Positions 25,368 through 64,000 of a stretch of DNA of 64,000 bases are shown here, in pieces. The first letter of the stretch is position 1. Every line of letters begins with the position of its first letter. This stretch comes from Climacium dendroides. Lineage: Eukaryota > Streptophyta > Bryopsida > Hypnales > Climaciaceae. The notes below the pieces were generated by a model that made no database searches, was not told the origin of the DNA, and saw nothing but the letters and a program-made list of their open reading frames with translations. The stretch covers positions 27,545,538 through 27,609,537 of the forward strand of contig OX467091.1 in NCBI GenBank assembly GCA_950106755.1, given 5' to 3'. Position numbers and translations under genes: made by a program.

Positions 25368-25428
25368 CAGAGCCTTCGATTCATCCGTTGAAACTAGGGT
25401 ATCTGCCCAAAAAAACTCATCCGGAAAC

Positions 25429-27180: not shown

Positions 27181-27198
27181 TGGAAAAGGCCTTCCCTT

Positions 27199-27954: not shown

Positions 27955-27979
27955 CTCGCACTGTCATTTCTCCGGTTTC

Positions 27980-28573: not shown

Positions 28574-28574
28574 C

Positions 28575-28970
28575 CAGGGTTGTCGTGGACATGCGTCCGC
28601 GGCGAAATTGCGTCCAAAATCAGACGTCCTGACGTCCGCACTTCCGGACCCTGCGGACGCAAACGGACGGTCCTCGATCGCCGTCCTGCGGGCGGGCGGA
28701 CGGATTGGCGAACGGGCCGGTCAGACTGCCGGACGGGCGGGTGGGCGGACGGGCGGGCGGATTGGCGGACGGGCCGGTCAGACTACCGGACGGGCGGGCA
28801 GACAAACGGCCGTTTATATTGGCGGACGGGTAGACAGTCGAGCGGACGGATGGGCGGTCGGGCGGACGGATGGGCGGTCGGGCGGACGGAGTGGCGGACG
28901 GGCGGACAAGCGGTCGGCGAACGGACAGATTGGCGGACAGGCGAACGCACGAACGGTTCAAGGGCTAAGG
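28575..28970. repeat. GC-rich array of GGACGGGCGG-type units
   Basis: From about 28660 to 28930 the sequence is built from GGCGGACGG, GGACGGGCGG and GGACGGGCCGGTCAGACT. It is far more GC-rich than its surroundings. It starts at CAGGGTTGTCG (28575), the kind of word hAT elements begin with, at the point where the gypsy gag is cut. Long open frames on both strands are a by-product. Related arrays are at 37345-37490 and 41821-42090. Confidence 0.8.
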
Positions 28971-29352: not shown

Positions 29353-32300
29353 CTAGGGGTGGTAACCACTATCTCCTATCACCTCTGCCCCGCTACTGTA
29401 CTCTCTTGATTGGAATCCATCATCTTCATCACTCATGGTGTTCTCTTCATCGTCTGATGAAAGTGTTTGATTTCCCCCTCTTTTCTCTTGTACTGTTGAA
29501 GATACACGAGCTTTCTTAGGCTTGCCCATCATTTGCTCGTTCTTTGCTTTCATCAAGGTTTTCCCTATACGTTCACGGAGGCGATCAACCGCTTTTCCTT
29601 TTCTCAACGGAAGTTCTGGAATAGACGGACGCTTATCAAGGGGGGGGGGGTCCTGCATTTACTTTCCTCGTTGGAGAGATAGCAAACGGTTCCATTACTC
29701 GTTTGTTCTTTGCTTTAGAGGGTTCTTCCATCATCATTGCCATCCCTGCCTTTCTCCCTTCTTCAGTGAATGCCTCTATAGCATTTGAAGATTCCAGTGT
29801 CGGGTCCGCTAGCCTTGTTGAAGATGCTGGTAGGCGGTTTCCTTGCTTCTTTAACATTGAGGCCAACGTCTCATCTTCCTCGTCATCAGTGAATGAAGAA
29901 ATCTGCAATCTCCGATTTTCGGTACGTTCTATTTCTTTCGAAATGATGGAAGCTCGTGTCGGGCGTTGAGAACTTCCTGAACCCACCAAAGTAGTGCTTA
30001 CACTATTAAATAGTGAGCGTGCACCTATTGGAGGAATGCTATGCGGTGGACATACAAAACTTGTCATGTTTTACTTTGTGCCTTGGCCATTGTGAAGCAA
30101 ATTCGGACTTCCACATTCTATCCAACGCGAACATACATTGTCTTGTGTTCCACTCGCTTCATGGTTTAGGCTACTTGGTTTCCCGTTGCTTTTGCTTGCC
30201 AATCCTTCTAGAAACTCCACGCTTATCTTATCCACATTCATTTGCTCGCAGTCCTCAACGTTGTCATTCTTTTCTAGTTGGGCCACCACTATGGATGGAG
30301 ACCTACCGCTTCCAATCACTTCATCTATTTTGGAAGTTCCAGCATTGGATGCTATGGTTCCATTAGAAGCCAAGACTTGGACATTTGCGTCCTCTTCATT
30401 TAGATTGAGGACCTTGTCGCTACTTAGAAATCGGTCTCCATCTACAAACCTTGCTATGGAAGGTATGTCTTCGTCGTTTCCACAATCATTATCGTCCATT
30501 GGAAAGTCGTACTCGTCTCGGTCATTGTTGCCCATGTCATCATCATCCATAATTACTCTTCCAAACGGTTCACCTCCAAAATTGTATGTGTTGCCATCAA
30601 AATCTTCTTCTTCATTGAATATTGGGTCATACCAATTTGCTTCTTATCCATGTGCTTCATTCCCGTCCACACGAACACCTTCTTCTTCATCTTCGCTGCT
30701 CTCATCATCTTCGTTTGGTCCCTCCGATTCTTCTGAATCTACATTTTCAAGGTACCACTTCTTCTCATCCCTCTCCTTGGATGCGGCCAACACTCTTGAA
30801 TTAGTGTACACATACACCAAATCCGCAGCTCTCTTTGTTCTCAACTTATTCCGAGATTTGTTGTGAATAAAAGAATAGCTACTCCAATTTCGTTCACATA
30901 AAGATGAAGATACTGGTTGGCCCAATATTCTCCTTGCAATTGGAGCAATGAGCTTCCCACATGCGCCTTCAAAATCCCACCAAGCGTGTGCCGATAATTA
31001 TTGTTCACATGGATCGAACATGTTGTGGAAGGGAGGCTCCCTATGTCGAAACGCCATGAATTCTTTGACGACATCCGTGTAGTCCGTAGGTTTACATATT
31101 CGCATGAGAACATGCTTGCATGCCTCGGTGGCCTTTGAATCGTCGGCTAGTTCTTTATCGTGCAAAAGATAGGGATTCAAAAGAGCTCTTGCATATTGGA
31201 GATCGGTCTCTACCATTTCCCATCTAGCGTTGAACGCCTCCTTCAATGGTTTGGCAAGTTCGGGGCTCAATAGAAAAGGCGGATTTTCTAATCCCCCCAC
31301 ATGCGATCGTATCTTCCCCATAATATGCAAAACTTTCCCTAAACATGGCGTCTTTGCATCTAAATCACGAAGGCCATACACAACAACGTCCATCAATTGC
31401 ACAAAATTCGTGCAACACCTCCAGAAATGCTCATTGTTTATTATCTTCTTTGTACACCGAGACTTTGTACGGTTCTTCTTTTTCTTGTCGTCCAACGTCC
31501 TCACATATTGTTCCCAATGCGGATCTGTCACACTCTGTTGAAGTGCTCCCTTCACTTTCAACAAGCGTTCAAGCGCAATGAAATTTGAAGCAAATCTTGT
31601 TTCGCCTGGCATCAATAAGTTGTACTCTTTTTCGTATGAACGAAATATTGCAAGCGGCATGTGCCGCTTTCTAAAAAACGTAAGAACGATACGAGCTTTG
31701 GCCACGACATCCGCCACCCATGCTTCCTTCCCCCAATCTTTTAGCAACAAATTCAAGGCGTGCACCACACAACCTTAAAAAGAAATGTGAGGATATTTAT
31801 CTTTTATAATTCTACATGCTCGAGGGTTTACAGGAGCATTGTCCGTTGTTATTTGCACCACATTATGCGGACCCACCTCCTGTATGAATTTGTCCAAAAT
31901 AGAGGCCAAGTACTCTGCGTTTTTTACGAACCCACTTGTGTCCACCGATCCCAAAAATTGCTCCCCTGTAGAAGATACAAGCATGCAATTCACCAATGGC
32001 CGATTTATAACCGAACTCCATCCATCAATAGACAAGGTTGCTCCAAACTTTTTGATACTATCCTCGGTCCTCTTCTGCAACTTTAGCTTGACATCTTCTT
32101 TCGCTTCTTCTAGTAATTTGGTTCGTAGAGCGTTGTACGATGGTGGGCTATATGGCTTACCAAACTCAGCTGTTTTCTTTATTGCTTCTTTGAAGGCCTC
32201 ACTTCAAGCTACCGCAAATGGTATGTTGGCTGAATAGAAGAAATTGGCCCACAACGCATTCAAATTGCGTCTATCAGCTTGTTCAAACCCATCTACTAGC

Positions 32301-37936: not shown

Positions 37937-40900
37937 TTACTTCAACACACTATTATCTTCTTCGACATCACGAGATGTCCCCTTCCTCGCCATGAGTCTT
38001 CTACTTGTTCGACGAGGCACCGGTTGCAGACTATTTCCTTGGCTGCTATCTCCGCGGCAAGCTTGTACCTGCATGTCAACCCTCTCAAATTGTCGTTTGG
38101 TTTCCGGAGAGTGGTCATCCTCCTCTTCAATCTTCCATTTATTCTTCTTCTTCAGAGACAACTCCATTTCGTGGGCCCTCAAAGCCCTCACAGCACAATC
38201 TATGTTATCCATCAACTGTTTTATCAATTCATCCTCGCTTTTCATCATCCAAGCTTGTTCGCCTCCCTCTCCTAAATACTTCCTTCACTTGGTTATAATG
38301 TCCTTCATGTTCATGTCAAATGCCCTTGCAACGTCTTCCATCTTATGCTTTCTAGATGATTTACCGTTTAGGTCCACTACAGAACGAACTCTTGCTACTT
38401 CTTCCAACTTCGACAAAATGAGGGCCCGCCCTATCAAATCCGTATTGTATCCCTCACATTACTTTATGACCTTTGGATCACGCTCAACCTCTACTAAGAG
38501 GTCATTTGGACCCTCTCTCCTCCATTCTTTCTCGGGAATTCGAAAGAACTTTTGGTGTTGTGTGCTCCAATGTCCGCCCATGCTGCGACAGAACAACTCT
38601 CGAGCCTCGCTGTTCTTAATCTCAAAGGCATGCAACTCAACCTCCACGTCAGACGTCATCCAAAAGAATTTATCTTTGGTGGGAAATGGGCCATCGCATA
38701 GCTCATATATTTGTGATCGAGCATCCCACTTCATTGGTTTCCCCCAATGCAAATAGTTTTGAAATTTGTATGGCTCTTGGTCAAGTGGAAGGTTCCATCG
38801 ATTGTATTCGTGCCCCATAGGCATACGGTACAAAATCCCTAGCATTTCATACAACCTTGGACTCAAAGGAATACGGCACTCGAGACAACGGCGTTGAAAT
38901 TCCGCCGATCTTTGAATGCAAAACACATGGAATGTATGGCGACACTGTCCCAATGCTATAGCTCCTTCGGGCCCAAAACAACCTTGGCAAAGAAAACAAT
39001 GACCCTCCAAGATGGGAGTATTTGGAAAACTTCCCGGCACAAGCTCCTTCTCATGTTGTTGGAAGTGAGCTGACAACGTGCCATAAGGGACCCATCCTTC
39101 CTCTGCTTCCAAAGTCCAATCAATGTTCTCCGTATCATAGGTCTTTCCGTGGTTTAGCCGCTCATACATCCTATCCATGTTCCTCCAAACCGTAAGTTTT
39201 AAATCAGGGTCCTTTCTTTCCTCCTCCAACTTCTCCACAAAACGCTCATAAGAACTCTTGACATTCTCGTATGCTGTGTCCGATTGCAATGCATACCTCA
39301 AGAGCCCGTTCATGAGTCCGGATGATACAGAGGAATGATCTTGTAGTTGCCACACCTACACCATCCACCGTAAATCCGCATTTTCCATTGGAAGGATTTC
39401 ACTTAGTACCCCTACTTCCATCATTCGTTTCATTGTTGATTCGGCCTCATTCTTTCCTCGAACTGCCAAGTCCAATTGATGCCTTAACTCTTCAACTTCC
39501 AGATTTTGTGACTACATGAAAGCATCTTCAAATGAGGGGAAAACTATGGATTTAGGATTCGGAATGCGTTGTCGGAGTTCTACGGTCCCATCCTCAGCTT
39601 TGCCCTCGTCAAGAGGAAGAGATAGTTGATCGCTCTCTTGTGTTGGTTCACTTGCCTCTAATAGCCATGTTCCGCTAGGCGATTGTTGACCTACCTCCTC
39701 GTTCTGTAATGTCTACAATGTTTTGTGATGCTCTTCTAACATCTCTTTGCATGTCTTCAACTCCAACACCAACTTCTCATTCATAGCCTTGAGATTCTCA
39801 TTCGTTCGCTTCAAAGTCTTGTTATCTTTCTTGACACTCTCATAATCATCACCCAAGGGCTTCAAGTTTGGGGTCGGCCTCCAATACAACGTGTTGTATT
39901 TGCTCTCCAATATCTCATACTTTGCCTTGAGGTCATCATGATCTTCTTTGGAGTAACACACCTCCTTCAACTCCAAATTCTGCTGTTCCAAAATTTTTTT
40001 ATGCTTAAGGTCTTCCAACTTCTCGTCTTATAGTTTGTCCACAAACTCGACAAACTTTCTGAAAGCCAAAGCACCATGAAGAACGGATGGTGTCATTTTC
40101 ATAAACGTATCAGTTATTTGCGCAAGAGCAGGCGTCAATACAGCCACAACTCTAGCTGTACATGATAGAGAATACGCCGTTCTAAATATCTCGCCAAATC
40201 CTGATGTTGAATTGCCTGAAGTGGAGCTGCGTCCTTCATTTGTAGTGCCACCTTCATTAGGATTTCCTCCTACATGCTCAGGGCCACCTTCGTTTATAGT
40301 GCTCCCTTCATTTCCGCCATTTGTTACTTCTCTCTGAATTTCAAATTGATTCCATCGAAGGGAACACTGCAACAAGTTCTCCATCTCTTCTAGTGGAGGC
40401 ATCTTTTGTAGAGTCTTGAGATCCTCTGGGCTCAACAAAGCTAGCAACAGATGATCTTGGATAATCGGGGTCTCTTCGTCGTTGTTCACAGCAGCCTCAT
40501 CCCGAGAGTCCATCCTTACATCTGTCGGTTGAGTTGGATGCTCTTCATTTTGGTTTGGTGAAGTCCGAATTGCATTTTCAAGTCTAGACAGTAGGCTTGG
40601 TTTTTTCCTTGATTTAGGAGACGGAGGGACATAGAACATGATGTCTTGTGCTGTGTCTGCTAAAAACCGGTCAATACAAGCGTGAGCCTCTTTCACGTCT
40701 TGAAGGTCTTTTCTATCTTCAATGTCTTTTATAGGATCCTCTTCTTGGTGCTTTTGTGACATTGATGTAGATCCATGTTCTGTTGGCCGAGGGAGCTTCA
40801 TTGCAACGTTGCTTTTTGGCACCCCTTCTAACACGTTTTGTGTAGGGTTCAAATCCGTCGGTGGAGTCAAAAACACCTCTCCCTCCACACCGTCCACAAG

Positions 40901-43077: not shown

Positions 43078-44542
43078 CGGATTCTAGGGCCGGATTTTCA
43101 ATTCATGTGCTCTTCAATTTTCTCAAGGCTCAATTAAAAAACGTCAATAAAAATATGCATGTTTATCTTTTATTTCTTTTTTAATTAAAAACAAAGATTT
43201 TTTTATTTTTTTCATTTTTCATTTTGTTTCTATATATTTTATTTTTAAAATACAAAAAGAAAGTTTATTTATTTATTACTTAAAAATAAAAAATAAAATT
43301 TAATATTTTCGTTTTTCTCTTATATAGAATATGCATTTGTAATCAACATGTTTAATGCTAAAACATAGGTACTTTATTGTAGTCACTTAGATGATTTTCC
43401 TTTAAAATTAAATAAAGTAAATCCATAAGGGAGTTGCTCTAAGAACGCTCGTGCTCTAAGAGTAGGGTTGCCAGCGTGCGAGCGTGCGAGCGTGAGCATA
43501 TGAGCGTGTGAGCAGGAACAAATAAACATGAATTACCTATGACCATGGATTCATAAAATGATTGAATCACCTATGACCGTGGTTCTTTAGAGGGTCGTGG
43601 CTGTATATTTTTTGGTATTTGTTGTAACCCTAATAATGGTGTAGGTTTAGGTTTATGGTGTAGGTTTAGGGATATATAAAGATTTGTTTGCTATCTATGT
43701 AGTGATGGTAATCAGTCTTCTGCAAGCTTTATTTCTGGTTAAACCACAATTTATGTCACTGAAGCTTTGGTGTACTTGTATTGTATTTCACACTGTCTTT
43801 TTCAACAAAAATCATTTCTGTGCAATTGTTTTTTCGTTGAGGCTTCTATATTTTTTAATGGAAGTGTTGGAGTAGTTGCCATTTATTTTAAATCTATATT
43901 TTTCTTTAAAAGTTTTGGTATAGTTTCTATTTTGGTAGACACCCTAGTATATAAGCTGTAGGGAGTCTGGATAGTTGTAATGTTCTTTGACATCTTTTTT
44001 TGGAAGCCCACATTTATAGTTTCAATTTTAATATGACATCCTATTCTTGATCATTCAAAATCTACAGTACTTGTGTTTTTTTGACACCTTATATTTTGGA
44101 GAATAAGTCGTGTGCAATTGCAATTTTTTTTAAATACACTACAAAAACTTTCGATTACTTGTAATGTTATTGGACACCCTATATGGCTACAAAATGTTTA
44201 AATTAATCACATTCATGTAGTTGGAATGTTTTTTTAAACCCAATATTCTGTAGTTTTGAAATCTTTTCAAACCATGGTCATTGTGAATGTTTATTTCTCT
44301 TATAGGCTGTGTCTCTTTCATTGAGACACTTGAAATGATGAACTACTATGTATTCCCTTGTATTGTCATTCAAAAGTGTCAAATGTAAGACACTAAGGTT
44401 AGAATTAATTTGAATGCACGACTGCATATTGTAGAGCAAAAACGGTGATATACACACATATAACCATACAACACACAAATCCAATCATAATCAAAATCAA
44501 CACATATTGTTTAGACTCATAAGATACGTCAATCTTATGAGT
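43078..44542. other. AT-rich DNA without a supported gene
   Basis: A short GCGTGCGA/GCGTGTGA repeat lies at 43470-43515, and a GGTGTAGGTTTAGG repeat at 43638-43672. No gene is seen. The end of this stretch is the 3' flank of the ParB/methyltransferase-like gene. Confidence 0.5.
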
Positions 44543-47500
44543 CTAAGTGACAGTCGATTCTACTGCAGAATCCCTGTCACTAGAAGAATCCGAAGTTTCT
44601 TCACCCTCTGAGGCCGATCCATCTATAAATTGCAAGACATTTAGCGCGTACAAAGGCTTTCGGCGTTTGGGTTCTGCAGTCCCAAACTCTGCAAATGCTG
44701 ATGCTAACTGCGATGCATAAACTGGTAAGTCAAATGACTTCTTAGGACTAAGGAGAAGCCTTCGCCTTCTCTTAATTGCATCATCTGCCATCAATCTCAG
44801 ACTGCTGCACATGAAAATGATTCACAATTAGATCATGACATCTTACATGTACTTAAGAAACATTAGAATTTGAGGACTAAAGAAAACTTACTTACTAGGT
44901 CTATCACGACGAGGGAACTTCCGAGGTACAATTGTCATTGAATCTAGATCTTGTGACACTTGAACGTCAGCAACTTCGCTCATTCCAATTGGGGCAACAG
45001 GACTTATAGGAGTAATAGTCCTCTTCATAGGTTCAAGGAGATATTTGAAAATGTTCTCGTCTTTCTCCAACGCTAGAATATGGCGCCCTGTTCTACAACA
45101 GGCCTTGATGGAGGCACCTGTGAAAACCAAAAGAAATTTCATTCAATAAGTGTTTAGGGTTGGTGTTGCATTTGAAGACTATATACAAACTTCATTTGAA
45201 TTTCATACTTACCCGTTGACGCTGTGCAATCAAGAACAATGTCTCCCTCGTCAATGGTACCGTCAATGAGAAATGCCAATAGTCGAGCATCCTTTTCTCG
45301 AGCCCCACGCCACGGTTTTCCATTGATTTTATTCACCGATAGGGAATCTACTGTCGTATAGTTCATAAGCACGTCATCTTGTTTAAGGTCCACTTTGGCT
45401 TGCTCCATTGCCTTTGATCGCTTGAAGCAGAACTTTGATTTCCCTCTAGGACCAAGGTCTTTCACGAGAATGGTGATACCAAACTTCAAGGTCTACTAGT
45501 ACAAAATCACAACTCACATTAAAAAAATGAATTAAAACTCAACCACGATAATGTTCCAAAAACTGTAAGGGATTTGGAAAATATTACCGTGCTCTTTTTG
45601 TCCACGACCGATATTAGATGCACTCGATTCATACATACCCACTCCTTCTTCACAACTATTTTTCGAAATTCTGTACATAATCCCGCAATGGTGCTCTTTG
45701 CATCCACACTCCACGAATGGAAAACCACAATTGCACCATGGTCTTGCAAATGCTTCTCTGCAAATGCAAATGCCTGGAATATCATATTGTAATGGGGGTC
45801 TGAGTTCCACGCCGGTATAATATCTGCTGTCAATGAACACCCCGGCACCGGCAAATTCTCTTGGCAGTCAAAGACCATCAAGTCAAATCCGGGAAATTTG
45901 TTTACCTTCCCATCGTATTCCCTGTCTTTCTCTACCACCACCTACAATAGGAAATTTGGTACCAATTAGTAGTTTCTAAGATGGAATTCTCATTCTGGAC
46001 TTCTAAATGATCTCGTAAAGAACAAAAACAAGAAATCCTTACCTTTTGTAGGAAATCAATAACCTCAGTGTAGCAATTCGGCCCAGGTTTTAGTTCATTT
46101 TTCATGATGTCTTCGATGGAGACATTCAGGATTAACTCCTCCAACGTTACCTCTTCGTCATCTGAAATGTGAACCAGTTGAGTCCCTTGGGTGACCATAT
46201 CTTCATTGAAGTCTGGTAGGACTGCCTTCCTCTTCATTCCGCTTTGACTTCTTCCTACCATCTCAGAGCTCTGGTCCACCGTTGATGATGTAGGAATAAC
46301 GGGTCCACCTTCGTCTTTCTTCATCCCTTTTGCCTTAGCCTTTTCTTCCTTCTCTTTTTCCTTCTCCTTTTCCTTCTCTGCCAACTTTGCCAAACGCTCT
46401 AACTCCTTCTTCTGTTTGTTCTCCAATGCAACTTTAAGCTTTGCTGCCTTCTTCCTGTCACTAGACTCCCTCTTCGAAATGGCCCTCCGTTTCTGGACAT
46501 CGGTCATCCCTACGAACTCATCCACTTCCAAATCAATGGCACCAATACCCTCCAATGAGTTCTGGAGTTGTGATTCCGATGGATGTGTGTACGAAATTGG
46601 GCAGTTAAGGTACCATCCACCACCACCAAGATGGGCCGTTGTATACGTCCTCAGTTGCATGGAAGTGTACATGCAACTCGGGGAAGTACGGTCTAAAAAA
46701 TTCGATAGGAATGTAGGAAAGTCTTTCTTCTCAATTGCACCTTTGCCCAGCAACTCAAACTTGAAGTATCTGTAGTTCCATTGTACAATGCAAAAAAGAA
46801 AAATCAAAACACATCACAATATTGTTTAAACAGATTGCAAGATTTCATTTATACTAAGAAATGCTTCAAATACACTTCATTAATTTATTTGCAATTTAAA
46901 AAACAAACCTTCATCAACAAACAAGACCAAAGGGAGCAAGAACTCTGTCCACAAACTTTGAATCATGTCATACAATTTTTCAACTCACACTATAAACCTC
47001 TTCAATTGTGCCCATAGTCCCCTTCGTTTTATAAGTATTCTTGCACGTCTACATTTTGGACATACAATGAGATATTCTTCACTTCATTGTATGAAGTACA
47101 AAATAAATACAATGAACACTTAAGATTACTTAACACTTACCGAAAAAGAACTCTTTGCACCGCTTGCTTGGACCCTTCATAAGCCTCAAAGTTGTCATTC
47201 TTCTTGAAATAATTTGCTCCTCTCAAGTGTGGTAAGAACCCTTGATCCCAAATCTTCTTTCTCCAACCTTCTAGGTAGTCCACCAAGGTATCTGGTTGCT
47301 CTGGTACGTCCATGTTCACAGCGATATTGTCACCCTTCACAATACTGTCGAATTCCTTTACGGCTGCATCTTCAATCTAAGAGACAAAGGTCTTGTAAGC
47401 TATGTCCAAAATATACAATGCAATGCAATTACTCCATGCACCTACACTTCAATTTTGTAATAAGTAAAAAGTTCAAAGATTACAATACATGTATAAAACT

Positions 47501-50500
47501 GTATACACTTCTTTCAACGTTCCAATATTGAGCATGTTCTTAAAAAATAGGAAAATTGTTTTATCCTACCGTATGTATAAGCAGGGCAAAATGTTATTAT
47601 TTTTTTCCTAAAGTCCTAGTCACTACTGCATGCACTTGTAAAGGAAACAAGCTCTCACCCCAGCATACCAAACACATCTGTTTAAAAATGGTGCAAGTAA
47701 TATCTCAGACACTGGCCTCGGCGGAAAACGCCTAGCATCACGTGATGGCCTAGATGAATTCCACCACTTCAAGAACTTTGTTTTATGTGCTGGTGTAGTG
47801 TTGCAAGTTGCAACCATTTGTAGCTTCTCCAGAGTCATCTCTGGAACCTCATTAGTACTCCAATGCCTTTCCACCTACAATTTGCAAATTTTTTGTTAGC
47901 CTCAAATGTCATTTTCAACAATAGGAGTCAAATTGTAGTTGCATATGCATAAGACACAAACCTCTTGTAGGAACTCTGGCTTGAGAGCTGGATTGGCCAC
48001 TGTAACAAGTTTCATCATCTTTATATTCAATTTCCCTATCTTCTCCCGTGCTCCAGCTCTCATTGCATGTGCCACCCCTTTTGGCATGTTCTCTTCCTTA
48101 GGAGTGACTTCATGGTACTTCCGTACTGCTCCATCTGTAGCTTGAGCTATCTCTTGCTGCAAAAATTACATGATAAATTAAATTACAAACAGCTTGAAAG
48201 CTCAAATCCAACCACATGACAACAAAACATGCATCCAGTAATTCATAATTCTTGAAGACGTCTCTTACCCGGAAAAGAAAACAAGTGAAGACCTGCACAG
48301 GCATAGTATACCAAGTCCTCTTCATCTTCACTACATCACATAATTTGAGTTCAGATGGCCTCAACATTTCCTTGAACTTGTCAATGGGAAGAAGTCCATA
48401 CTTTTGGACTCTGTATAATGTGTGGACAAGATTAGTCTTCACATATGAATCCTCCGTCGACCTACAATTCATTTGATAAAATGGGTTAATTAAAGACTTG
48501 AAATACAAACATAAAAAAAACATATGCAAATAAAGATAATAGACAATGCCATATTAAAAAGGAAAAAAAAGACTTACTTGTTTATGTCATGCATTACATG
48601 CATGACCAACTCCGTCTTCCCCTTTGTATTTAGGACAATGGAATCCACAGCACAGTGCCAATCTGCGTCACCAAAGTGACGCCTCTTGATGTGGGTCATC
48701 CAAGAAATTAGCCGATGGTTTCCATCGCAAACGTAGAACTTCAAGTTCTTCATAAACCTAAGCTCGAGCACGGACTCTAAGTGCGAGGTAAAAATGGCAT
48801 TTTTCTCTTTCCAAATAGGACCCCAAGCCTCCATCTTCTCTTCCATGAACTCCAAACTCTCCCCTCCCTCATTTGTTGTTGTCACATAAAACACTGCGGC
48901 TCCATCTCTATAGCCATTCACAAATTCATGCTCTAGTAACAATAGGTCACTTGCAAGAGTGGGCCTTACCATAGGCATGGCTACCATTCTACACAATGGT
49001 ATTTGCAACCAAAACAGGTGGTCCGGCTTCATCCGCAAAGCTGCAATAGACTTCACAACATCTACCTTGTGATATTGCTGAAGGTCATCCTCCAAAAGGT
49101 CTTTAGATTCATCTTCTACAACGTCCTTCCTTGCATCACCTACCCCGTACTCATGTTCACCTTCATCTTCATCTTCAGTTTCTTGTTCAATGTCTGGTTG
49201 CTCTGAAGCTTCGATTGCCTGAGTCTCGGGAATGGTTTCCTCTACCCAAAGGTTAGCTGTACCGTCTTGCATCTGAAAGTTCAAATATGAAAATGAAAGA
49301 ATTAGAAAGGATTCCAACGGAAACAATGACCAACAGAATACTATGAAGTCATTGTCAATTTCAAACTACATTGGTAACTAATATGTCTACAATGAAGACC
49401 ATCACAAACGAGCTTTGTGCAAAATTAATAATTGAAAATGATTCTAAAGTAACAATTTCAAAAACACACCAAAATAACCAAATAAATTAATAAACCAATA
49501 CAAGATACAACGGAGAAGTTTGTTACATGTCAATTTGAGACTGAACAAAGATCAATGAACACAACATCTTCACTATGTGTAATTGTGCTCCATGTACAAT
49601 CAAAAGTTTCATGAATTATAGGTGCATTGTCAGTAATAGAACTCTGTCTATTAGTGTTGTTTTTCCTCTGAACTCTCTAGAGAGTGCTCTGCTGTCCTAT
49701 GACTAAATGCATCCTTATTTTAAGGATTCGTCCAAATCTAGTGTAAAACAACACTAACATAGAATAATGCACAATCCTTGGATCACTCACATGATTGAGG
49801 GCACGTTTCTTATACACATCTGCCAAATAATGTGCACTTATTGAGATTTGGAAAAACTTACCATTTCTTCTTCTCTTCGTTCTTCTTCTTCCGAACTGCT
49901 GGAGACTTCCGTGGCCGTTGGTGATGGTGTCGAAATGTGAGAAGGTCCAGCCCCTGATAGCAACGGGGGATTTGGAGGACGGTCTCTTCCTGTCGATGTA
50001 CTCCTCTGATGTCCTCCCTGCACATCCAATCAGACGACATAAAACGTCACTAATTTTATATCACTATATTCTTTCCCAAATGACAATCACAAGATTTAAT
50101 AAAACTAAAGAGAAAGTCATGAACACTAACATTACTTTTTCTTTGTTGAATAGTACCAACTTATCAAACCATATACATTATTGAATGTACAAATTCACTT
50201 CATCTACAACTGAACCTACTAGAAAAGAGCCCAAATGTACTTAAATTTTAGAAATTACTATAATACCACACATTCAGAAAGAGTAAAAAATTTTATTGTC
50301 AAACGGAGGGGTCTATAGCTAACATGATTTTTTACAGTCACATCTGACGGTCCATGATGAAGAAAGTCCTACATCCCCCGTCATGGGATTATAGTTGCCG
50401 TAGTTTCTGTCGTCAACATTCTTAAGGACATAATGCGAATAAACAACAACTTCTGTTTGGCCTTTTCAATTGAAGTAACCATAAACAAAAAGGCACTCTT

Positions 50501-52274
50501 ACATATTAAATGCAAATTATAAAAAAAATTAAAAGACTCGTCACATATCGAAAATGAAGGTCAAGGTAAATTCCTGAAACTTTAAGAAGACTTCAAAACT
50601 ACAATCAAACGCTGCACAATTAATACAAACGAGTCAAAGTTAAAATTAAAACCGAAATATTAAAACCCAAACATTAGAAGTTCGGGGGTCCAGGTAGCAA
50701 CGGCAAATAGACCATCGGATCCGATAGTACATTCCCTATGGTCACCACGACCCACATATTTCAAGAATTCGGAACCTTATAAACCCACGCCAACTATGGC
50801 ATATGACAGTGGAGGATTTCGACCCAAACACCTTCAGCGTCGTTGGTTACGTCTCACAGCGTAGCAAAGCTGCAAAGGTAACCTCTGGCTTCCCTGCCAC
50901 GTATCAAATCCCACTTTGGTCTTCCGGCTTTCGCCACCTATGCGTTCTACCTTCACAGCAAGTCAGCAACTTGGAGCCTTCAAAAGTCGACTAGTGTAGA
51001 AACTTAGAAAAACTAGAACCTTTCTGAGAGAATCCAAGAATTATAGCAAAAGAAGGGGGTCCCGTTACCACCAAGAAGGAGACCGTCGGATCCGATTGTC
51101 CGTTCACTGGACTGTCGTGGACCCCCCAAAATGAGGTGGCTTCAGAATTCAATACTCTGTCTTTCCACTGGACATACGTAGTTCAGCTGAAATTTGAAAT
51201 TGTTCCACATTCTCAAAAAAACTCGCACACCTCGGACCTGAAGGTTGTTGAAGATCTCATTCAAGATCAGTTCACACTTCTTACTGCTTTCGGGAATCGG
51301 GATTCATTGAAGCATAGTCCGGGTTCAATAATACACATTAGTTTCACTCCCCGTTTGTGCATACTCCTGAAACCACAATGAATTTCAAGAAAGAAGTAGT
51401 CCACATAGGTAAAAAAATTGAAGTAGATTCGGCATTGCATTGCCCGTAACTGAAGCAGTCAGGATTTTGCCCTCAGTCGAGCTCATGCATTCCCGCACAA
51501 GCGATCCAACTCACTCACCCATTGACTCAATAAATCCACAAGCGAGACTGAAAGAGATTCGTAAAGTTGAACTAAGGGTATTATGATTGGGATTGAAATG
51601 TACACCGCACCTAAGATATTCACACCGCAGCCAACAACTCAAAAGCTGAAGAGATTCAATCTTCACAGAAAACGCGCATGTGCACCGAAAACTCAACACG
51701 CCTATACATACGCACCACCAATATAGAACCGGTGCCAACCACGCGAGACGCTCATTACAACGAACGACCAGGAGAAGACTCAAACTACCCATCACCGAGT
51801 TGGTGGACATAAGCAAACCTCAATATGTATATGAATTCAAGTTACGTGAACTGCCTTAGTCTTCGACACATCTCTTGGAGTTCGGACCGTGCATCCTCAC
51901 ATTCAGCGGTTACGTCGACTACGATCTTTTCGCAGTAGTATAAATGAAAACTTCAAACAGTAATAAGTATCTTTGATCGGTACAGCAACAACAAGAAGAT
52001 AAGAAGGACAACTGCGGTGATGACCGCACTCAAATTTGGGGGTCCAGGAGCGACTAGTAGAGGAAGCGTCGGATCCGACTGTCTTCCCCGAAGACGCTAG
52101 AGGACCCCAACATTTCAGTGGGGAATCGGAATGCACAAGGAGATGCACCGTCAATTACTGTTCTAGAAACAGAAAAAAATGCAAAGCTGAACTTACCGTA
52201 TGTACAGACGCCTGCTCTTGCGATGTAGGAGAGTTGGAGTCCAATCTCGCACGAGAACGAGTGTGCCTCATCAT
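44543..52274 (-). CDS. ParB-like and DNA-methyltransferase-like protein, 12 exons, intact
   Basis: Exons, high to low: 52274-52197, 50017-49862, 49272-48578, 48461-48269, 48156-47962, 47874-47659, 47376-47141, 46769-46043, 45941-45588, 45492-45213, 45117-44892, 44804-44543. All introns are GT-AG, phases agree, and the exons sum to 3618 bases: 1205 residues with no stop. Residues 1-150 are disordered and acidic. About 150-300 is ParB-like, with FYVCDGNHRLISW near 258-270. A helical middle is followed by a Lys/Glu coiled coil. From 833 the protein resembles beta-class N6/N4 methyltransferases: FDLMVFDCQENLP (motif IV position), HGAIVVFHS, then KPWRGAREKDARLLAFLI, GDIVLDCTASTGASIKAC (AdoMet motif, from 1033) and GRHILALEKD. 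The usual (D/N/S)PP(Y/F/W) is D-C-Q-E here, so catalysis is uncertain. Exon 1 is the least certain part. Confidence 0.75.
50684..50755. repeat. 72 bp foldback repeat, copy 1, in intron 1
   Basis: It begins GGGGGTCC, has the perfect 12 bp palindrome ATCGGATCCGAT at its centre (50714-50725), and ends in GACCCAC. It aligns without gaps to the copies at 51055 and 52038. Confidence 0.7.
51055..51127. repeat. 72 bp foldback repeat, copy 2, in intron 1
   Basis: It begins GGGGGTCC, is centred on TCGGATCCGA (51086-51095), and ends GGACCCCCC, so outer and inner palindromes are both present. Confidence 0.7.
52038..52108. repeat. 72 bp foldback repeat, copy 3, in intron 1
   Basis: It begins GGGGGTCC, is centred on the perfect palindrome GTCGGATCCGAC (52068-52079), has a nested GTCTTC/GAAGAC pair, and ends GGACCCC. 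It lies 90 bp inside the first donor site of the ParB/methyltransferase-like gene. Confidence 0.7.
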
Positions 52275-52406
52275 GGAGCCAAGCTGTATGGTTTCCTGAA
52301 ATTCCCGCAACAGAGCTGCAGCCGTCTCTTTCTCAGGTGCAAAAAGAATTCTTAAAAAACAAAAGACTGAGTGTCCATAGAGAGGGCCGCACAAGGGAAG
52401 GGTGCT

Positions 52407-52436
52407 GTGACGGTGACAGTGACGGTGACACGGTGG
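52407..52436. promoter_or_regulatory. GTGACG/GTGACA tandem upstream of the ParB/methyltransferase-like gene
   Basis: Four to five copies of GTGAC(G/A) follow each other about 130 bp upstream of the predicted start codon. They contain TGACG-type cores that plant bZIP factors bind. Position makes a promoter role possible; there is no direct evidence. Confidence 0.3.
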
Positions 52437-54019
52437 ATGATCTTTGATTGGTAACGAAAATATATTAATTTTTTACACGCTGCAATATTAATTCAAGGAC
52501 TAACCTTCATGCATCATGGTGGACACTCATTTTCTTGCTCAAAAGAAATTGACACAAGAACGATGAGGTTTCGATGTGCACACTTGCAAAATTTGAGAGA
52601 GCTTGCATCTACTCTCCACTACATTGTTTACTATGAATGCAGAAGCATTCCAAAACTTACTGTGAACGCGTGAACTGAATTTTTACCAATCACCTAGTTC
52701 TGCGTTTTCATCAACAGTTTTCTTTTTCAAGATCCTCTGTTCTAAAGTTGTAGATTCTCGGCTGTAATTGAAGAAATCTGCAGAAGCATCCCAAAACTGA
52801 CGGTGGTAAGGTAGAAATTAATTAATGTAGGAAATTATCTCAACGCCGTTTAGTTAATTCTCAGTGATTGTGGTTCATCGAATCTAAATTCGGTTCGGAG
52901 CGCTGTGAGTTTGAATTGGAGCGCTGTGCAAGAGAATCCCGGGACAGAATGAGCACTCCAAGTCGGCCATTTGTGGTAAGTAGAACTAGCCATGCGAGAT
53001 GAACGGAAAGCCGGATTACGGTGCCAAATTGCGCGCTTTTTTTTTTTACAGCCTGCCTACCCTGGAATCGGCTTACCCGAAGATAGGGTCTAGCGGCTGG
53101 TAAAGTACCGCACGTCTTGCGGTGTCAAGTGCGTCCTCGGCGGCCTTTGAAAATCTGGAGGAGCGGTTTTTGAACACCTGGCCAAGTTGGAAGACCATTG
53201 ACGTTCCACAAGCTTACATAACATGCGCCGGAAGGCATTCACAAGCTGCCTCACGTATAGTCAGAGCAATTTATTCTACATACACTGTACTATGCAAGTT
53301 ACGTCAACAAGTCAACAAGCTGATTGAGCAATTCCGAAGCCTTATGCATGCATGCCAACCAATGAGTTCATAGTTACATACAATAGAAGGCGAGCCACTT
53401 GCGTGCAAAAGTCAGTAACTAATGGGCAATTGATCATCGACCGATCTGCGTGGCCGAGATCGATATATATTTCACATTAACAAGCTTCCATGCCAATTCA
53501 ACGTTGATAATTAGAATGAAAAATGGTACAACCGGAGTCTCTTATACTTTAAATAATGTCTACTTAATTTCCAATCATTCTCTCATGAAAATGTCATCTG
53601 CGGAATCTACTCTAGACACCCCTGGGCCAGTACTTTATAAAAAAGACAACACTGAAGGAATACTGTTAACAAGAGTCTCCCAGAAATGGAGGACCCACAT
53701 CTCGTTCATGTAAGCTACAAATGAGACTCCATTCAAGTCCACAAAATCATGCACCCCATGAGGACAGACATGCAAAATAGAGAACTCAGGCCATTGCAAC
53801 AGGTTCAGCACCAACGCACATTCCTGTAGTGTTTAACCCAGTCTCGGTCTTTTCCCTTCTTCCTTATGAAGGAGATAAAGAACATGAATTTTTCTATATC
53901 GTGATATTATGTTAACAGAATTTCTGGATTCAATGTGCTATTGTGAGGTTTTAGGTCTTTGTGACATCATCTGGAAATGGGAAAAGGCTGGTCCAAATCT
54001 ATCACGTAGTGGGAGAAAA
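52437..54019. other. intergenic DNA without a supported gene
   Basis: A weak plus-strand open frame at 53122-53373 shows no domain. I find no element ends here before the CACTA terminus at 54020. Confidence 0.4.
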
Positions 54020-58200: not shown

Positions 58201-58585
58201 AAATTGTCCATTTGAAAATGCCACCTCATACTAGAGAAATATCAAAAATAACCATTAGTGAACTTTCCTAAACCATATTCTGAAATCTTTATTTACACAC
58301 AATTTGAAACTAATTGACATAGCCACTTGTTTGCGTTTAATATTATTCTAATTGAAGCAGCTCAAAAGGTAGGTGCTTCATTTTTCTATTGCGTAGGTGA
58401 TGTGGACACATAATTATGATGCCGAACATAGCCTCTAAGATGCTATGAATGTATTATAGGAAGGCGGTGCACAAGAAGTGCTTTAAAATGGCTACCTAAA
58501 AATTTGGATTCAATAATAGTAACTAAGAAAGGAGGGTCGTCCATCCCTACACCTCCTAATTTGAGGTGGAATTCAAATTCCATGT
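55243..58585. other. intergenic stretch with weak minus-strand open frames
   Basis: Minus-strand open frames at 56384-56716 (110 codons, starting MGTDGKAQSCRITNTGKN), 56015-56206 and 55490-55762 could be exons of one gene, since some edges sit near AG or GT sites. I recognise no domain and cannot join them with confidence. Nothing else is visible except AT-rich DNA. Confidence 0.3.
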
Positions 58586-59083
58586 ATGTCATTATACCGT
58601 AGAAAAAGAAGTGGTTCAGCACTGACCTATAAGGATTACACTCTTACATCTTGTGTAGTTTTTGCATATGGTTTGTATATCATGGCTTCCATTCGTGTAG
58701 ATGGATATGAAGTTCCACTTATTTTTCCGGTTAATGAAGGAGGACGAGCAAAAGTATTGAGCCATCTCTTACATGTCCGTTTCAAGTTTGTAGAATCTTC
58801 CATTTATGTTGAAGAAGAGAGGATGTCACTGTCAGGACAAGTGCAAGAGTCAATTCCTATGGTGAAGTCTGAAGAAGAAAGTGGTCATTGTTGGTATCTG
58901 TCGAAGGGGAACTATAGAGCTTACGGTCTTCCTTTGTGTTTGGTATCTTCATCATCAGAAATCCCAAGTCGGCATTCAGATACTTCTACTGTCAATATGC
59001 CGTATGTTAATTATGTATTATCTCCTAGTTCGACTCGAGAAGTGTCTAGAGCTGCTCCACATGTTTTGTTCTTCGTGCAGTGA
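58586..59083 (+). CDS. candidate first exon of the zinc-finger/MULE-like gene
   Basis: An open frame of 165 codons lies 70 bp before the main frame on the same strand, in a different phase. It reads VDGYEVPLIFPVNEGGRAK and KSEEESGHCWYLSKGNYRA, looks like real protein, and has no recognised domain. It ends at a stop right after a possible acceptor (CGTGCAG). How it joins the exon at 59152 is unclear. Confidence 0.4.
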   Translation: MSLYRRKRSGSALTYKDYTLTSCVVFAYGLYIMASIRVDGYEVPLIFPVNEGGRAKVLSHLLHVRFKFVESSIYVEEERMSLSGQVQESIPMVKSEEESGHCWYLSKGNYRAYGLPLCLVSSSSEIPSRHSDTSTVNMPYVNYVLSPSSTREVSRAAPHVLFFVQ

Positions 59084-59151
59084 AACTAGAGAAAGAAGAT
59101 TTTGTCATCGAGTTGTCTAGCGATTCATCAGGAGAATCTCTTCAGTTATAA

Positions 59152-62045
59152 GTGTTAGAGCCATTGCTTCCTAATAAGGCTGCTCTAAATGAAAATGGAA
59201 GTCCATTTTCGGTGCAGAACACCCTATCCAGTAGTCCAAGGCATTCTTCTGTGTCACGTCCCCCGTTGCATCCAAGTGCAATCAGTCGATTGAGTATAAT
59301 AGAATGCCTGAAGAGATTGGCATCTATGCATCGTTCAAGGAACGAGTTATCCACAATGGACCTCAACAGTATGAAGCATCACCGCGTGCAATTTCTTCCA
59401 GCCGTATTCAATGGGAATGTCATTTTCGAATTGCCTCCTTGTCGACTGTCGTCCTCTTCAGCAGCAGCGAAGAACTTGGAAGGAATGGATAAGCGATACG
59501 ATGGACATCCTTGGTGCAAATTGGTGACTACAAACATTCAGAACTCTGACAATCTGAAGTTCCGTAAGTCATATTGTGCAGGTCATCTTGCTTGTGAGAA
59601 TCCAGATTGTGATTATGTGAAGAGGACTTCTAAACGCAATGAGACAGAGTGGAGTGGCTATACAACATTTCCTTTTGAAGTAGGAAACAATACTTCAAAA
59701 GATTGTACGCTTGTTTGCAAAGTGTGCAAGATTTCACCATCATGCCTAAGTGTGTGTGATGCTCGGATTTACTATTGCTACAGTGCTAATCCACATATGA
59801 GTAGAGCTGCAATTCACTTTGGAGACCACACTCACCCTGTTGCAAAAGGAATGTACAGGGATTCTGCAAAAGAAATTTGTGGACTTCTAGTAGATGAAGT
59901 GGTTAAGACACCAAAGGCCACTAACTCAGCAATTGCTTTGTCTGCAAGCAAAGAGTTTTTGACAAACTATTTATTTCATGATGGTCAAGGGGAAAAGAAA
60001 ATGTTGAAGGGAGAAGAGTTGGAGGAAGTGATGGATCGCTTTGAATTCTTAAGCAGTCCGAATGTTAGAAATGTCATATCATCATTTCGCTCAAGCAATG
60101 GAGGAGGTGTAATTGATAACATCATGACCATGAAGAAGGAATCAAAGTTTGAATTCATTCACGACAGTGTATTTCCAGGACAGGGAAAGGAGAAAGTTTA
60201 CATTTTCAAGATGCTTACTGAGGGTCCTAGAAGTGGAGTGGATTTGGTGAAGCGCATGCAACCTGGAGGGAATTTGGAAAATGTTTGGATGATGTTTAAC
60301 CATGTGAAGCGTGTGAAGGAGTGGACAACAATGGCATGTCATGTTTATGATGCACAATACAAGAAGGTAATGACCATTGCAGTCTGTGATATGCAATCTG
60401 AAGATACTGAAATTCAAGTGCAATTTTGGAGGTGTTTGAATGCCGTCATGTCACGAAATGGAGTACATCACCCAAACTTCAAGGGGTTCATGGCAGATAG
60501 CGCTATGGCAAATTGGAATGCTGTTCGTATAGTCTATGGAAATGGTTCAGCTAGTGACAGAATGGAGAATCGTGAGCTAACATGCTTACTGCATTGGAGC
60601 ACTTTATTTCAGAAGCATACTCAAAAATACATCAAGGAGGAATTCCAAAATCAGCACACAAAACTTTGCAAACAATACAAAGATTCCAAGACAATGGAAG
60701 AAGCAGAGACACGATATCTAGCAATTAAATCATGGTGGTTATCATCTGGAGCAGCAACTGAAGATGCGCTTCATTACTTAGATCACTGGTTAGCATTTTG
60801 GCATTTTCGATATCGGCAATGGGGGGGATTCATGCAAATGGTGAGTATAACATTTCTGTATCATGTACATTAGAGTAGTTATAGAAGACTACCCCAAGGA
60901 AATGGTCTTCGTTTTAGTAATAAAATAGGATACGTAAATGATCTAAAATAAAGGGAGGTGAATAGAATTAAAAGAAATGGTATTAATTGTTAATATTTTT
61001 CTTGGTGTTTTAGTAGTTAAGCGCATAGAGAAATCGTTTATGAAAAATAGCATGAAGGATTTTGTCGTCTTCAAAATTCTACCCTAAACTAAATTAAATT
61101 ACTGGATGTAATAGTCCTTTTTTTTATTGCGGAAGATTGTAATGTATGGAATTGACTGCAATTTTTTTTCTCTACTTGTGATGCAATGCAGGATTTGAAT
61201 TTGGAAGAGATGGCGGATATGCCTTCCTGCAATTTGTCGGAGACAATTCACAATAAGTGGCTCCAAATGTCTGGCAATCGAGGAAACAATCTATTTGATG
61301 CTACATGCGATGACAGCATCCGTGCGTGGATGCAAATGACTAACTATCGAGCTTATTTAAAAGGGCATGCATCTGGATGTGGCCCATCGAAGGGTGAGTT
61401 GAAGTTGAGAGCTGCTAGACGAAGTGGAGACCCTAAGAAGATGGCAGAGGCATTGAATACCTTACCTGGATGTGAAGGTTTTGGAATTCGTGTACCACAC
61501 TTGGAGGAAGAGGAAATCTTTGGAAGCACAAAGAGGAAGTTGGACGTACCTATTGGTGATGCAGGGGATTCACATCGACCGGACAAGGTTAATTTTTCGC
61601 AACCTCATATTCGTACAAGGTCAACTGTGGTTGGGGTAGAGTCTTTTGGTGACAAAGGAAAAGAACAAGGGACAAATGACTTCAATCATGTTACAGTTGC
61701 ATTTGAAAGTGACTGTGATACATCTAAGTGGCACATTGCAAGGATCAGCTACAAATCAAATGCAAGATGTTATGCTCAACAGCGGGGGTCAAATATGAAA
61801 TGCACTGCAAAAATCTCGAAGGGATGGAAGGGAACACCAGCTCCAACTTATCGCGGAAGAAAGGAAGATTACGGAAGCAAGAGAGAGGTGATAAGTGACT
61901 TCTGGTTTTGTCCAGATGACATTGAATATTGTGTGAAAGGTACAAAGCGGAAGTGGGTCATTGACTGGCCAAGTTTGCCAGACATTTGGCCTGTTTTAAG
62001 TGGGACCAATTTAAGTCGGGAAGAGACTTTGCTCCTGCAACATGC
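59152..62045 (+). pseudogene. WRKY-GCM1-like zinc finger / MULE transposase-like gene, cut by a CACTA element
   Basis: Exons about 59152-60840 and 61192-62045 join in phase 0 across a GT-AG intron. The first part has a zinc-finger-like module: SYCAGHLACENPDCDYV, later CKVCKISPSC, and IHFGDHTHPV, the C2HxH pattern of WRKY-GCM1-type fingers. It is followed by a transposase-like core: MTIAVCDMQSED, KGFMADSAMANWNAV and ELTCLLHWSTLFQKH, recalling the Asp motifs and C..H of MULE transposases. Exon 2 continues HNKWLQMSGNRG and GHASGCGPSKGELKL. The frame runs into a CACTA terminus at 62046, so the 3' end is displaced or lost. The upstream edge is uncertain. It may be an immobile transposase-derived host gene or an element gene; no inverted ends were found. 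Confidence 0.6.
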
Positions 62046-62059
62046 CACTATAAGAAAAC

Positions 62060-62800
62060 GGTGTCCGCCTGGACATCCAGCCAAAAACGACGTATATCCG
62101 CATAGACACGATACTTTGCACGAGACGTCAGGGTGTCAGGTCGAGAAAGTGGAGATTTTGCGATGATGTCTATGTTAGCATTGCTAGATTGCAGTCACAA
62201 CATACTGATGTTACAAAAAACGTCCATGCAATGTAAGGCATCTAGGTGGACATCAGATGTTTCCCAGGATGTCCAGAATAACATGTTTAGCCACGTCATC
62301 ATCTTTGGTCAAAAATACCTCACAAGTTTAGATAGAATTTTGGTGCGGTCAGAGGTAAAGTGACTGCCCAAGGCTAAAAAGAGGACAACGGGCAGGTTGT
62401 GACTCCTAAAAGCTTATGTGGCATTTGATGTGGCGAGATGAGGTGGTTATTGTGTGACGTGGACCGACGAGGTGGCAAGATGACGTGGCTGCTGTGTAAC
62501 GTGGCATGATGACGTGGATATTGTATGACGTGAACAAGGATGATGACGTGGCATGCCATGTCAGCATCCATGACGAGTCCATGTTCCGACCTCGGATGTC
62601 TCTGTGGACATCACACCTGACGTTTTGACGTCCACATTGACATTACTTCTAGCGTTAACATTTTGTACTTCCTGCGACTGTAACTTCAAAGCACATGCTA
62701 TCGACGGTGCGTTTCATTACGTCTGACTGGACGTGTGGGCGTTGTAGAAGCAACTATAGGCGTCCACTTTGATGTCAAATATGACTCCAGATGCATGACA
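62060..62800. repeat. subterminal GACGTC/GGACATCC repeats
   Basis: Words such as GGACATCC, GATGTCC, TGACGTGG and GACGTC recur every 10-40 bp in both orientations inside the terminus. A TGTG(T/A)(A/C)GTGG-type repeat dominates 62400-62560. These are candidate binding sites of the element's own protein. Confidence 0.6.
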
Positions 62801-63117
62801 TTATTTTATGAAAAAGGGTGAATTTGTACATGATGCACTTCCTTCCTATGTGTTTACTTAGGTCAGGGGCATTTCTGGGCTCTTCAAGTCATACAACTTG
62901 TGCACGTTCTTCAAACTTCATTAGGATAAGATTGCAACCTACTCTTATGATGTCACGTGCAGCACCGAAGTAGACAGATTCTGTCAAAAAATGCATGTTC
63001 AAGATGCATCAGGAATACTTGGAAGACATGAACATGTTGATGTCCACGTATTTCGCAGACGTCCTATGTGACGTCTAAATGCTATCACAGCATACACATG
63101 TCAATGATGTGAACACC

Positions 63118-63747
63118 CTATGCTTCTTCCTCAGATGCGATGTCATCGCTAACTATGGCAACATACTCGCCACCATGGTCTATGGGTTGGCGCACCGGGT
63201 CCACGACTTGTTCCACTGGTTGTAGTCCATCGAAGTCCCTATCATTCACTAACTGCACCATGTTCGGGGTTGTCGTTAGAGGGTGCAATGAGCCACGTCT
63301 ACTCCTCACCTCAGTTCGGCAAACTACTTTCCAACCAGGCCGATGTGGATCATCGGAGAAGAATACCTGTTGGCAATGCAAAGGAAAGGCAAATGAATCT
63401 GCATGGACCGTTCCATCCAAATGGTTGAAGTTTGCCAACGTGAAGCCATACTTATCCTGTTGCACGCTAGGAGCTCGACTACCTTGTGTGCCCCTCACCC
63501 AATCACACAACAACACTGTGACGCAGTGATTTCGATAATCCAATACCAAAATCTCTTCAATGTACCCCACATACTCCTGCGTGGATTCCAATGGCCGGCC
63601 ATTTTGCAAACCCCAACGAAGCTGGCGTGTGAAACTCGCTACCACTCCAGAGTCACGGGTAACAAGCCCACGTTCAGAGCTTCGGACACGGAGGTGCATG
63701 CCATGACAATACATTTGACGATGGGATGTTGCCTTCCGCTCAGGAAG
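63118..63747 (-). CDS. CACTA protein C-terminal exon, DUF4216-like domain
   Basis: The exon starts after an acceptor (GCGTAG) and reads YCHGMHLRV, TRDSGVVASFTRQL, EYVGYIEEILVLDYRN, VTVLLCDWVRG and CQQVFFSDDPHRPGWKVV. This series (GYIEEIL, LxCDW, QVFF.DDP, W.VV) is the pattern of DUF4216, the domain found at the end of plant CACTA TNP2-like polyproteins. The end EEEA at 63118 precedes an in-frame stop. It belongs to the CACTA element whose terminus lies 1.07 kb further left. Confidence 0.8.
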   Translation of the reverse strand, partial: LPERKATSHRQMYCHGMHLRVRSSERGLVTRDSGVVASFTRQLRWGLQNGRPLESTQEYVGYIEEILVLDYRNHCVTVLLCDWVRGTQGSRAPSVQQDKYGFTLANFNHLDGTVHADSFAFPLHCQQVFFSDDPHRPGWKVVCRTEVRSRRGSLHPLTTTPNMVQLVNDRDFDGLQPVEQVVDPVRQPIDHGGEYVAIVSDDIASEEEA

Positions 63748-63823
63748 CTACGCATAATGTCTGATGTCTTCATCCACTGGACGTCCAGAATGATCAGCCT
63801 CCGTCACCGTTGACGTCAGTCAC

Positions 63824-63952
63824 TGCGTGAAGGATGGAAACTCACTTAGTTCAATTGGATAACGGACAGCTCTTCCTAGATTTGAGCGCCGCCATGCAAC
63901 ACGAAAAGCTTCCCGCTCCTCCCATCTTTGGGACTTTGCTGTAGTGTAGTCC
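63824..63952 (-). CDS. candidate upstream exon of the CACTA protein
   Basis: It is bounded by an acceptor (GATGTAG) at 63953 and a donor (GCA|GTGACT). It reads WEEREAFRVAWRRSNLGRA and VRYPIELSEFPSF. The peptide looks genuine but holds no motif I can name. It precedes the DUF4216-like exon on the same strand. Confidence 0.4.
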
Positions 63953-64000
63953 CTACATCACACTCAGCAATAATGAAATTAGGACAACGGATTGAAGATT

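Follow-up and report, generated by a model that had tools for sequence, protein, structure and literature searches.

A ParB–methyltransferase-like gene of the moss Climacium dendroides as the accessory gene of a dispersed 17-kb DNA transposon

A stretch of 64,000 nucleotides from the moss Climacium dendroides (assembly GCA_950106755.1, contig OX467091.1, positions 27,545,538 to 27,609,537; hereafter the window) contains an intact gene in which a ParB-like domain is joined to a domain resembling DNA methyltransferases. The locus raises the question of whose gene this is. A sequence-only reading had taken it for a single nuclear gene of the plant, kept intact by host selection among dead transposons. 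The other copies in the genome give a different answer: the gene is the second, accessory gene of a two-gene DNA transposon of 17 kb, which is dispersed and was recently mobile. What the protein does for the element is best explained, with a probability of about 0.6, by targeting of the element itself through the ParB part and the methyltransferase-derived part of the protein.

A search of the whole genome (412.6 Mb) returned 192 exon matches belonging to two subfamilies. Among the matches listed, the window subfamily (A) occupies at least 19 loci at 87-100% identity, the window included (16 with exon 3 at 90% or more, three with exon 8 alone, at 87% or more), and the diverged subfamily B occupies at least 19 loci, with exon 3 at 63-67%. 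Three copies retrieved with their flanks are 99.3-99.95% identical across 17.0 kb and end abruptly. The two copies on C39 (C39a and C39b) are 99.95% identical over 17,033 bp and differ in their flanks and target-site duplications. The element ends, CAACGACGCTAGCATGCGAGC... and ...GCTAGCAACCCTG, form an imperfect inverted repeat (82% over 50 columns). DNA of the right end is found at 26 places in matches at least 89 bases long and at least 89% identical, of which 24 extend to the terminal bases; 21 shorter or weaker matches bring the total to 47. Target-site duplications of 9-11 bp, as in Mutator-like elements, flank all ten insertions of which both ends were seen. Those of C39a, C39b, C3:41.1 and the window copy, and those of C41:21.1 and C3:3.0, both with one mismatch in the left repeat, were recognised by eye, and those of C1:1.1, C1:29.6, C41:22.2 and C38:15.9 were scored by a script. 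An eleventh candidate, C37:15.3, showed no left end in the stretch examined.

In copy C39a the opposite strand carries a gene for a transposase-like protein of 1182 amino acids, joined from two exons. Its likeness to the Pfam family SWIM is weak (E 0.099 in one scan, not seen in a second). By eye it has a C-terminal CxC...CxH finger and a CxxH, which we take to resemble those of Mutator/KDZ-type DDE transposases. Of the 19 subfamily-B loci listed, one copy was examined; it shares the two-gene arrangement and the left end with the subfamily-A element. Its cargo exons are free of stops, and its transposase-like protein shares 71% identity with the C39a protein, with synonymous sites saturated. 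Two subfamily-B gene copies on C37, at 27989756 and 28009320, have identical match scores and opposite orientation and lie about 19 kb apart, which suggests an inverted duplication.

The window copy of the element extends from 43464 to window-equivalent position 76096, beyond the end of the window, and is bounded by an 11-bp duplication. It is interrupted by a nested insertion of 12,837 bp, at the junctions of which about 3 bp of the host element are repeated; from its CACTATAAGAAAA ends we presume this insertion to be of the CACTA/EnSpm kind. The idea that the window holds a left-truncated element was dropped once the element was found to resume past the insertion. Part of the middle of the copy has been lost and small insertions have been gained, and the ParB–methyltransferase gene has stayed intact. 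Over 7.4 kb the copy is 97.6% identical to a mobile copy, and the intact frame can be put down to this youth. A single-copy host gene is ruled out by the genome-wide copies, the near-identical mobile copies and the target duplication of the window copy. The sequence-only reading was thus correct in calling the gene intact and mistaken in setting it among dead transposons, since the gene is itself part of one.

The gene lies on the minus strand (52274-44543) and consists of 12 exons joined in consistent phase by GT-AG introns, giving 1205 codons and a stop, with no internal stop. The 11 introns measure 87-2179 bp and their pooled GC content is 0.363, as against 0.452 in the exons. Alternative splice sites of the last intron change the protein length by one residue. 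All 12 exons are collinear and free of internal stops in three further subfamily-A copies, and exons 3-12 could be mapped without stops in the subfamily-B copy at exon identities of 44-86%. This conservation indicates that the splice model is sound, as had been proposed, and rules out a chance chain of exons. Exons 1-2 could not be matched to the subfamily-B copy, and the first intron of the window copy holds extra DNA relative to C39a; the 78 residues that these exons encode are therefore the weakest part of the model, and the true N-terminus is less certain. The extra DNA in the intron 1 region (50833-52836) amounts to pieces of 73, 560 and 377 bp; an 11-bp overlap flanking the 560-bp piece hints at a small nested insertion. 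A search with the full-length protein scored 7989 candidates and returned none at E up to 10, probably because the charged linker swamped the query; exon-sized queries gave relatives.

The N-terminal domain very probably has the nucleotide-binding fold of ParB, as judged from a predicted structure. When the model of residues 136-309 was compared with known structures, the first 30 rows consisted of ParB, Noc, KorB, PadC, Srx, SbnI and SerK together with two uncharacterised entries, after which Z dropped from 5.2 to 2.2. The Box II GxxR motif, DGNHR in the window, is nearly invariant across alignments of 76 and 98 members. [DN]GNHR occurs in 107 of the 123 relatives fetched, three of which do not span the motif. 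In the segment printed for 16 exon-3 loci of the same genome, GNHR is found in 14 and GNHQ in one, and none was found in one. The ParB-like domain that had been proposed from its DGNHRL core is thus borne out by both fold and motif. Pfam does not detect it: window exon 3 alone matches no family, and a scan of 76 homologues gave no hit to the ParB model PF02195 at E up to 1. Six of the 76 touch DUF1015 (best 0.002) and two touch DndB (0.032), but these weak matches are no evidence by themselves, since unrelated families score as well (KMP11, six members, 0.0047).

The C-terminal domain is very likely homologous to beta-class N6/N4 DNA methyltransferases. The window piece of this METHYLTRANSFERASE part matches PF01555 at E 6e-5 and phage methyltransferase families at 1.6e-7; against the NCBIfam CcrM model it reaches 0.0014, far under the cut-off of that model. 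Two of five aligned members match phage methyltransferase families of PHROG, the best at E 1.3e-9. The corresponding piece of subfamily B matches the solved methylase DpnA at E 5e-4, and the alignment places GPREKD on HPTQKS, LDCTVATG on LDPFMGSG and LEKD on IESE. With the window's own piece as query the top matches were the proteins Cake6 to Cake10, CcrM reaching only 0.78; a longer piece brought CcrM to 0.062. PF01555 gave no match at E 0.001 or below over the whole genome despite the presence of the gene, which indicates that exon-split methyltransferase domains are invisible to such a test. The domain is about 45% identical between the subfamilies.

Motif IV of the amino-methyltransferases is of the DPPY class. 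In the moss domain this catalytic motif is missing, which was overlooked when the methyltransferase features and their order were first noticed. The PP[YFW] of [DNS]PP[YFW] is absent in all 14 loci examined, and the replacement is conserved: D-C-Q-E in 12 and D-Y-Q-E in two (subfamily A ten and two, subfamily B two with C). Motif I, FxGxG, is mostly lost as well, reading DCT[AV][SA]T in the sequences that cover it, with the final G kept in the window. DCQEN is retained in the fetched relative P0001, and PW[RH]GAREKD with DCTAS in P0002 and P0003. Since both motifs are replaced and the replacements are conserved, the canonical amino-methyltransferase mechanism is unlikely; methyl transfer is probably either non-canonical or lost. 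The gene can be seen as the land-plant form of an accessory gene known from algal transposons, here with a conserved non-canonical active site.

These features, together with analogy to known elements, favour somewhat a role of the protein in anti-silencing or transposition through self-targeting. The protein would load onto the DNA of its own element by a ParB-type clamp or switch and by a DNA-recognition surface derived from the methyltransferase. Once bound, it would oppose silencing by the host or aid the transposase, much as VANC acts for VANDAL elements in Arabidopsis. A reader, a clamp or an altered enzyme appears more likely than a canonical methylase producing N4-methylcytosine (4mC) or N6-methyladenine (6mA). 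A more specific form of the proposal, which we put forward only tentatively, is that clamp and methyltransferase fold together make a self-recognition device whose rebuilt site (D-C/Y-Q-E with DCTAST- and PWRGAREKD-like stretches, maintained across the two subfamilies) has no 4mC/6mA output. If true, such a device would read, block or differently modify DNA to defeat silencing, and would constitute an anti-silencing system unrelated to VANC.

The algal proteins suggest instead an active methylase that marks its own element with 4mC or 6mA, either to evade silencing or to guide the transposase; the Ectocarpus authors, in a passage of PMC12477816, suggest that proteins of this type bind to the transposon that encodes them and modify it. 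Retention of GRHILALEKD and of the first D of motif IV fits such an enzyme, but the missing PP[YFW] and the exchange of FxGxG for T-[AV]-[SA]-T-G-like residues make it improbable for the moss protein. That the catalytic motif is consistently lost distinguishes reader or clamp models from methylase models. Because one genome contains young, near-identical copies as well as a diverged subfamily, the questions of unusual modification and of relief from silencing are testable. About equally improbable is a structural role alongside the transposase, comparable to that of mudrB in maize MuDR, in which the protein serves integration or end-binding rather than epigenetics. The two-gene layout fits, mudrB being apparently needed for integration according to part of PMC6446971, and ParB folds serve as DNA clamps (passages of PMC12704722). 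Homology to methyltransferases does not predict such a role, which is argued for by analogy.

The rates of non-synonymous (dN) and synonymous (dS) substitution bear on whether the protein has any function. Between the window and subfamily-B copies dS is saturated, while dN of the cargo gene is 0.295 over the whole, 0.253 in the ParB part, 0.222 in the middle and 0.450 in the methyltransferase part; for the transposase, C39a against subfamily B, dN is 0.199, with dS again saturated. Low dN of the cargo despite saturated dS indicates that the protein has been maintained through a long evolution of the element. Between the window and C39a the dN/dS of the cargo is 0.38. In this pair the ParB exon has 11 synonymous and 8 non-synonymous changes (ratio 0.18) and the methyltransferase exons have 3 and 15 (ratio 1.4), a difference with Fisher p 0.017 in a comparison picked after the counts were known. 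The methyltransferase part may be evolving faster, and both relaxed constraint and an arms race would fit. Purifying selection is real and is most simply understood as selection on the element family.

A functionless passenger, captured from a prokaryote or the host as in Pack-MULEs, is accordingly a poor candidate. Capture is known for Mutator-like elements (parts of PMC6446971 and PMC13317346) and the many non-synonymous changes in the methyltransferase exons of young copies could be read in its favour, but the arrangement of two genes persists in a subfamily whose synonymous sites are saturated. The ParB alignment found no relative in viral contigs or in prokaryote genome contigs, nor did the window methyltransferase piece in the viral ones; these are weak negatives for a giant-virus or prokaryote donor because the scans need short conserved peptides, and no search for a host donor gene was made. 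A domesticated gene under host selection, finally, would account for a 1205-codon frame that is intact in a copy with a broken transposase, but is very improbable for one of many copies so close to a mobile one and with its own target duplication, the dN/dS against C39a being explicable by selection on the ancestors of both.

Several results weigh against self-targeting by a ParB- and methyltransferase-derived accessory protein, or against parts of that reading. Foldseek gave no match to the ParB model at E 0.001 or below (best 0.053), and a first model, from alignment A1, was poor (predicted local distance difference test score, pLDDT, 51.4), its search returning no meaningful matches. The PF01555 score of the window piece, 23.5 bits, is under the cut-off of 26.7, and the family profile A3 retrieved no solved structure up to an E of 1. 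Four of the 12 subfamily-A loci show variation in the PWRGAREKD stretch, and the ratio in the methyltransferase exons of the window and C39a exceeds one. The transposase-like protein matched no Pfam family, nor the MULE (PF10551) or KDZ model at E up to 10. In the subfamily-B copy the transposase gene has two in-frame stops, and no right end was found in the stretch examined.

Table 1. Positions of the gene, its domains and the parts of its element in the window.
Feature	Position	Strand	Remarks
Right terminal inverted repeat (AGGGTTGCCAGCGTGCGAGC...)	43464..43513	+	Sharp end common to copies with unlike flanks
Right target-site duplication	43453..43463	.	Partner abuts left end at C40:27621633, outside window
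Exon 12 and stop codon	44543..44804	-	Mapped in genomic copies
Exon 11	44892..45117	-	Methyltransferase-like domain ends; GRHILALEKD
Exon 10	45213..45492	-	KPWRGAREKD at place of HPTQKP; LDCTASTG at place of DPFxGxGT, across exons 10/11
Exon 9	45588..45941	-	Methyltransferase-like domain begins; matches PF01555 and phage methyltransferase families
D-C-Q-E replacing catalytic DPPY (motif IV)	45858..45869	-	D-[CY]-Q-E in 14/14 other loci examined
Exon 8	46043..46769	-	Carries charged KEKEKEK linker
Exon 7	47141..47376	-	Mapped in genomic copies
Exon 6	47659..47874	-	Best-conserved exon, 86% to subfamily-B copy
Exon 5	47962..48156	-	Mapped in genomic copies
Exon 4	48269..48461	-	Mapped in genomic copies
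Exon 3	48578..49272	-	Acidic N-terminal stretch, then predicted ParB-fold domain; 154 relatives in exon search
Predicted ParB/sulfiredoxin-fold domain, residues 136-309	48580..49101	-	Modelled alone
DGNHR, GxxR-type nucleotide-binding motif of ParB fold (Box II)	48712..48726	-	Conserved in relatives
Exon 2	49862..50017	-	In three A copies; unmatched in subfamily-B copy
Exon 1	52197..52274	-	Start codon at 52274; in three A copies; unmatched in subfamily-B copy
Transposase-like gene, broken	58565..62045	+	Frame disrupted near 59.1 kb; interrupted at 62045 by nested insertion
Nested insertion (12,837 bp), CACTATAAGAAAA inverted ends	62046..64000, on to window-equivalent 74882	.	Host element resumes at 74883, ends at 76096

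A second gene of the window (14093-16433, minus strand) resembles ParB/DndB by eye around an INGQHSVAASK core, with no such Pfam match. It represents another dispersed family, for which 151 genome matches were obtained, many at 85-92%. Four of its copies on C3 (15063614, 15092645, 15121676 and 15150707) are spaced by exactly 29,031 bp, which may be a tandem array or an effect of assembly. Downstream of it on the same strand, and possibly in the same element, is an open reading frame for an NLI-interacting-factor (FCP1-like) phosphatase (10787-11419, minus; PF03031, E 2.7e-12). Further reading frames, all on the minus strand, are a Gypsy-type retrotransposon pol-like one (24057-28720) and a hAT-like transposase (31001-32203), both recognised by eye from the translation, and a RING-H2-like finger (38462-39355; PF12678 at 1.6e-4, under the cut-off). 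A fragment of ribosomal protein uL6 (L9) at 4730-5101 matches seven PDB sequences at 1e-54 or below, the next at 6e-41; several of the seven entries are flowering-plant ribosomes.

Fungal KDZ transposons are large and carry a TET/JBP DNA-modification enzyme as their second gene. The moss element is like them in being a large transposon with a second gene of DNA-modification type, and unlike them in the enzyme. VANC is not known to contain a ParB or a methyltransferase domain. Likened by description, VANDAL elements are also Mutator-like and have an extra, anti-silencing gene (parts of PMC10398659, PMC5735166 and PMC6446971); extra genes of Mutator-like elements, vanC included, are treated in PMC6446971, and accessory genes of KDZ elements are mentioned in PMC12477816. 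Fusions of ParB with N6/N4 methyltransferases are listed for phages in a part of PMC12704722, where sulfiredoxin is named as the commonest eukaryotic representative of the ParB fold, and the proposed likeness of the moss gene to such layouts holds for the domain combination. Unlike the phage and bacterial fusions, the moss gene has introns, 1205 residues, a long middle region and an altered catalytic motif. A search of the open-licence PMC literature, Physcomitrella and Marchantia contexts included, found no land-plant report of a ParB–methyltransferase gene, a result that does not establish absence.

Sola1 elements make short target duplications. As far as target duplications tell, the moss transposase is not of the Sola1 type. 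The 21.5-kb element Sola1-1_Ec32 of Ectocarpus has an accessory gene with ParB-like and N4/N6 methyltransferase-like domains (described in passages of PMC12477816, which also cite green and red algal counterparts from Iyer 2011 and Petroll 2025). Judged from the published description, the two elements share a ParB and methyltransferase-like protein of about 1100-1200 amino acids, encoded in a giant DNA transposon on the strand that does not carry the transposase. The moss element differs in its 9-11-bp duplications and its transposase without a Pfam match, and its motif IV lacks PP[YFW], whereas 4mC or 6mA is the predicted product of the Ectocarpus domain (PMC12477816). ParB–methyltransferase genes seem to be recurrent accessories of giant transposons, in print from brown, red and green algae and now from a land plant, and their repeated appearance in company with different transposases would point to a portable module for self-recognition or anti-silencing.

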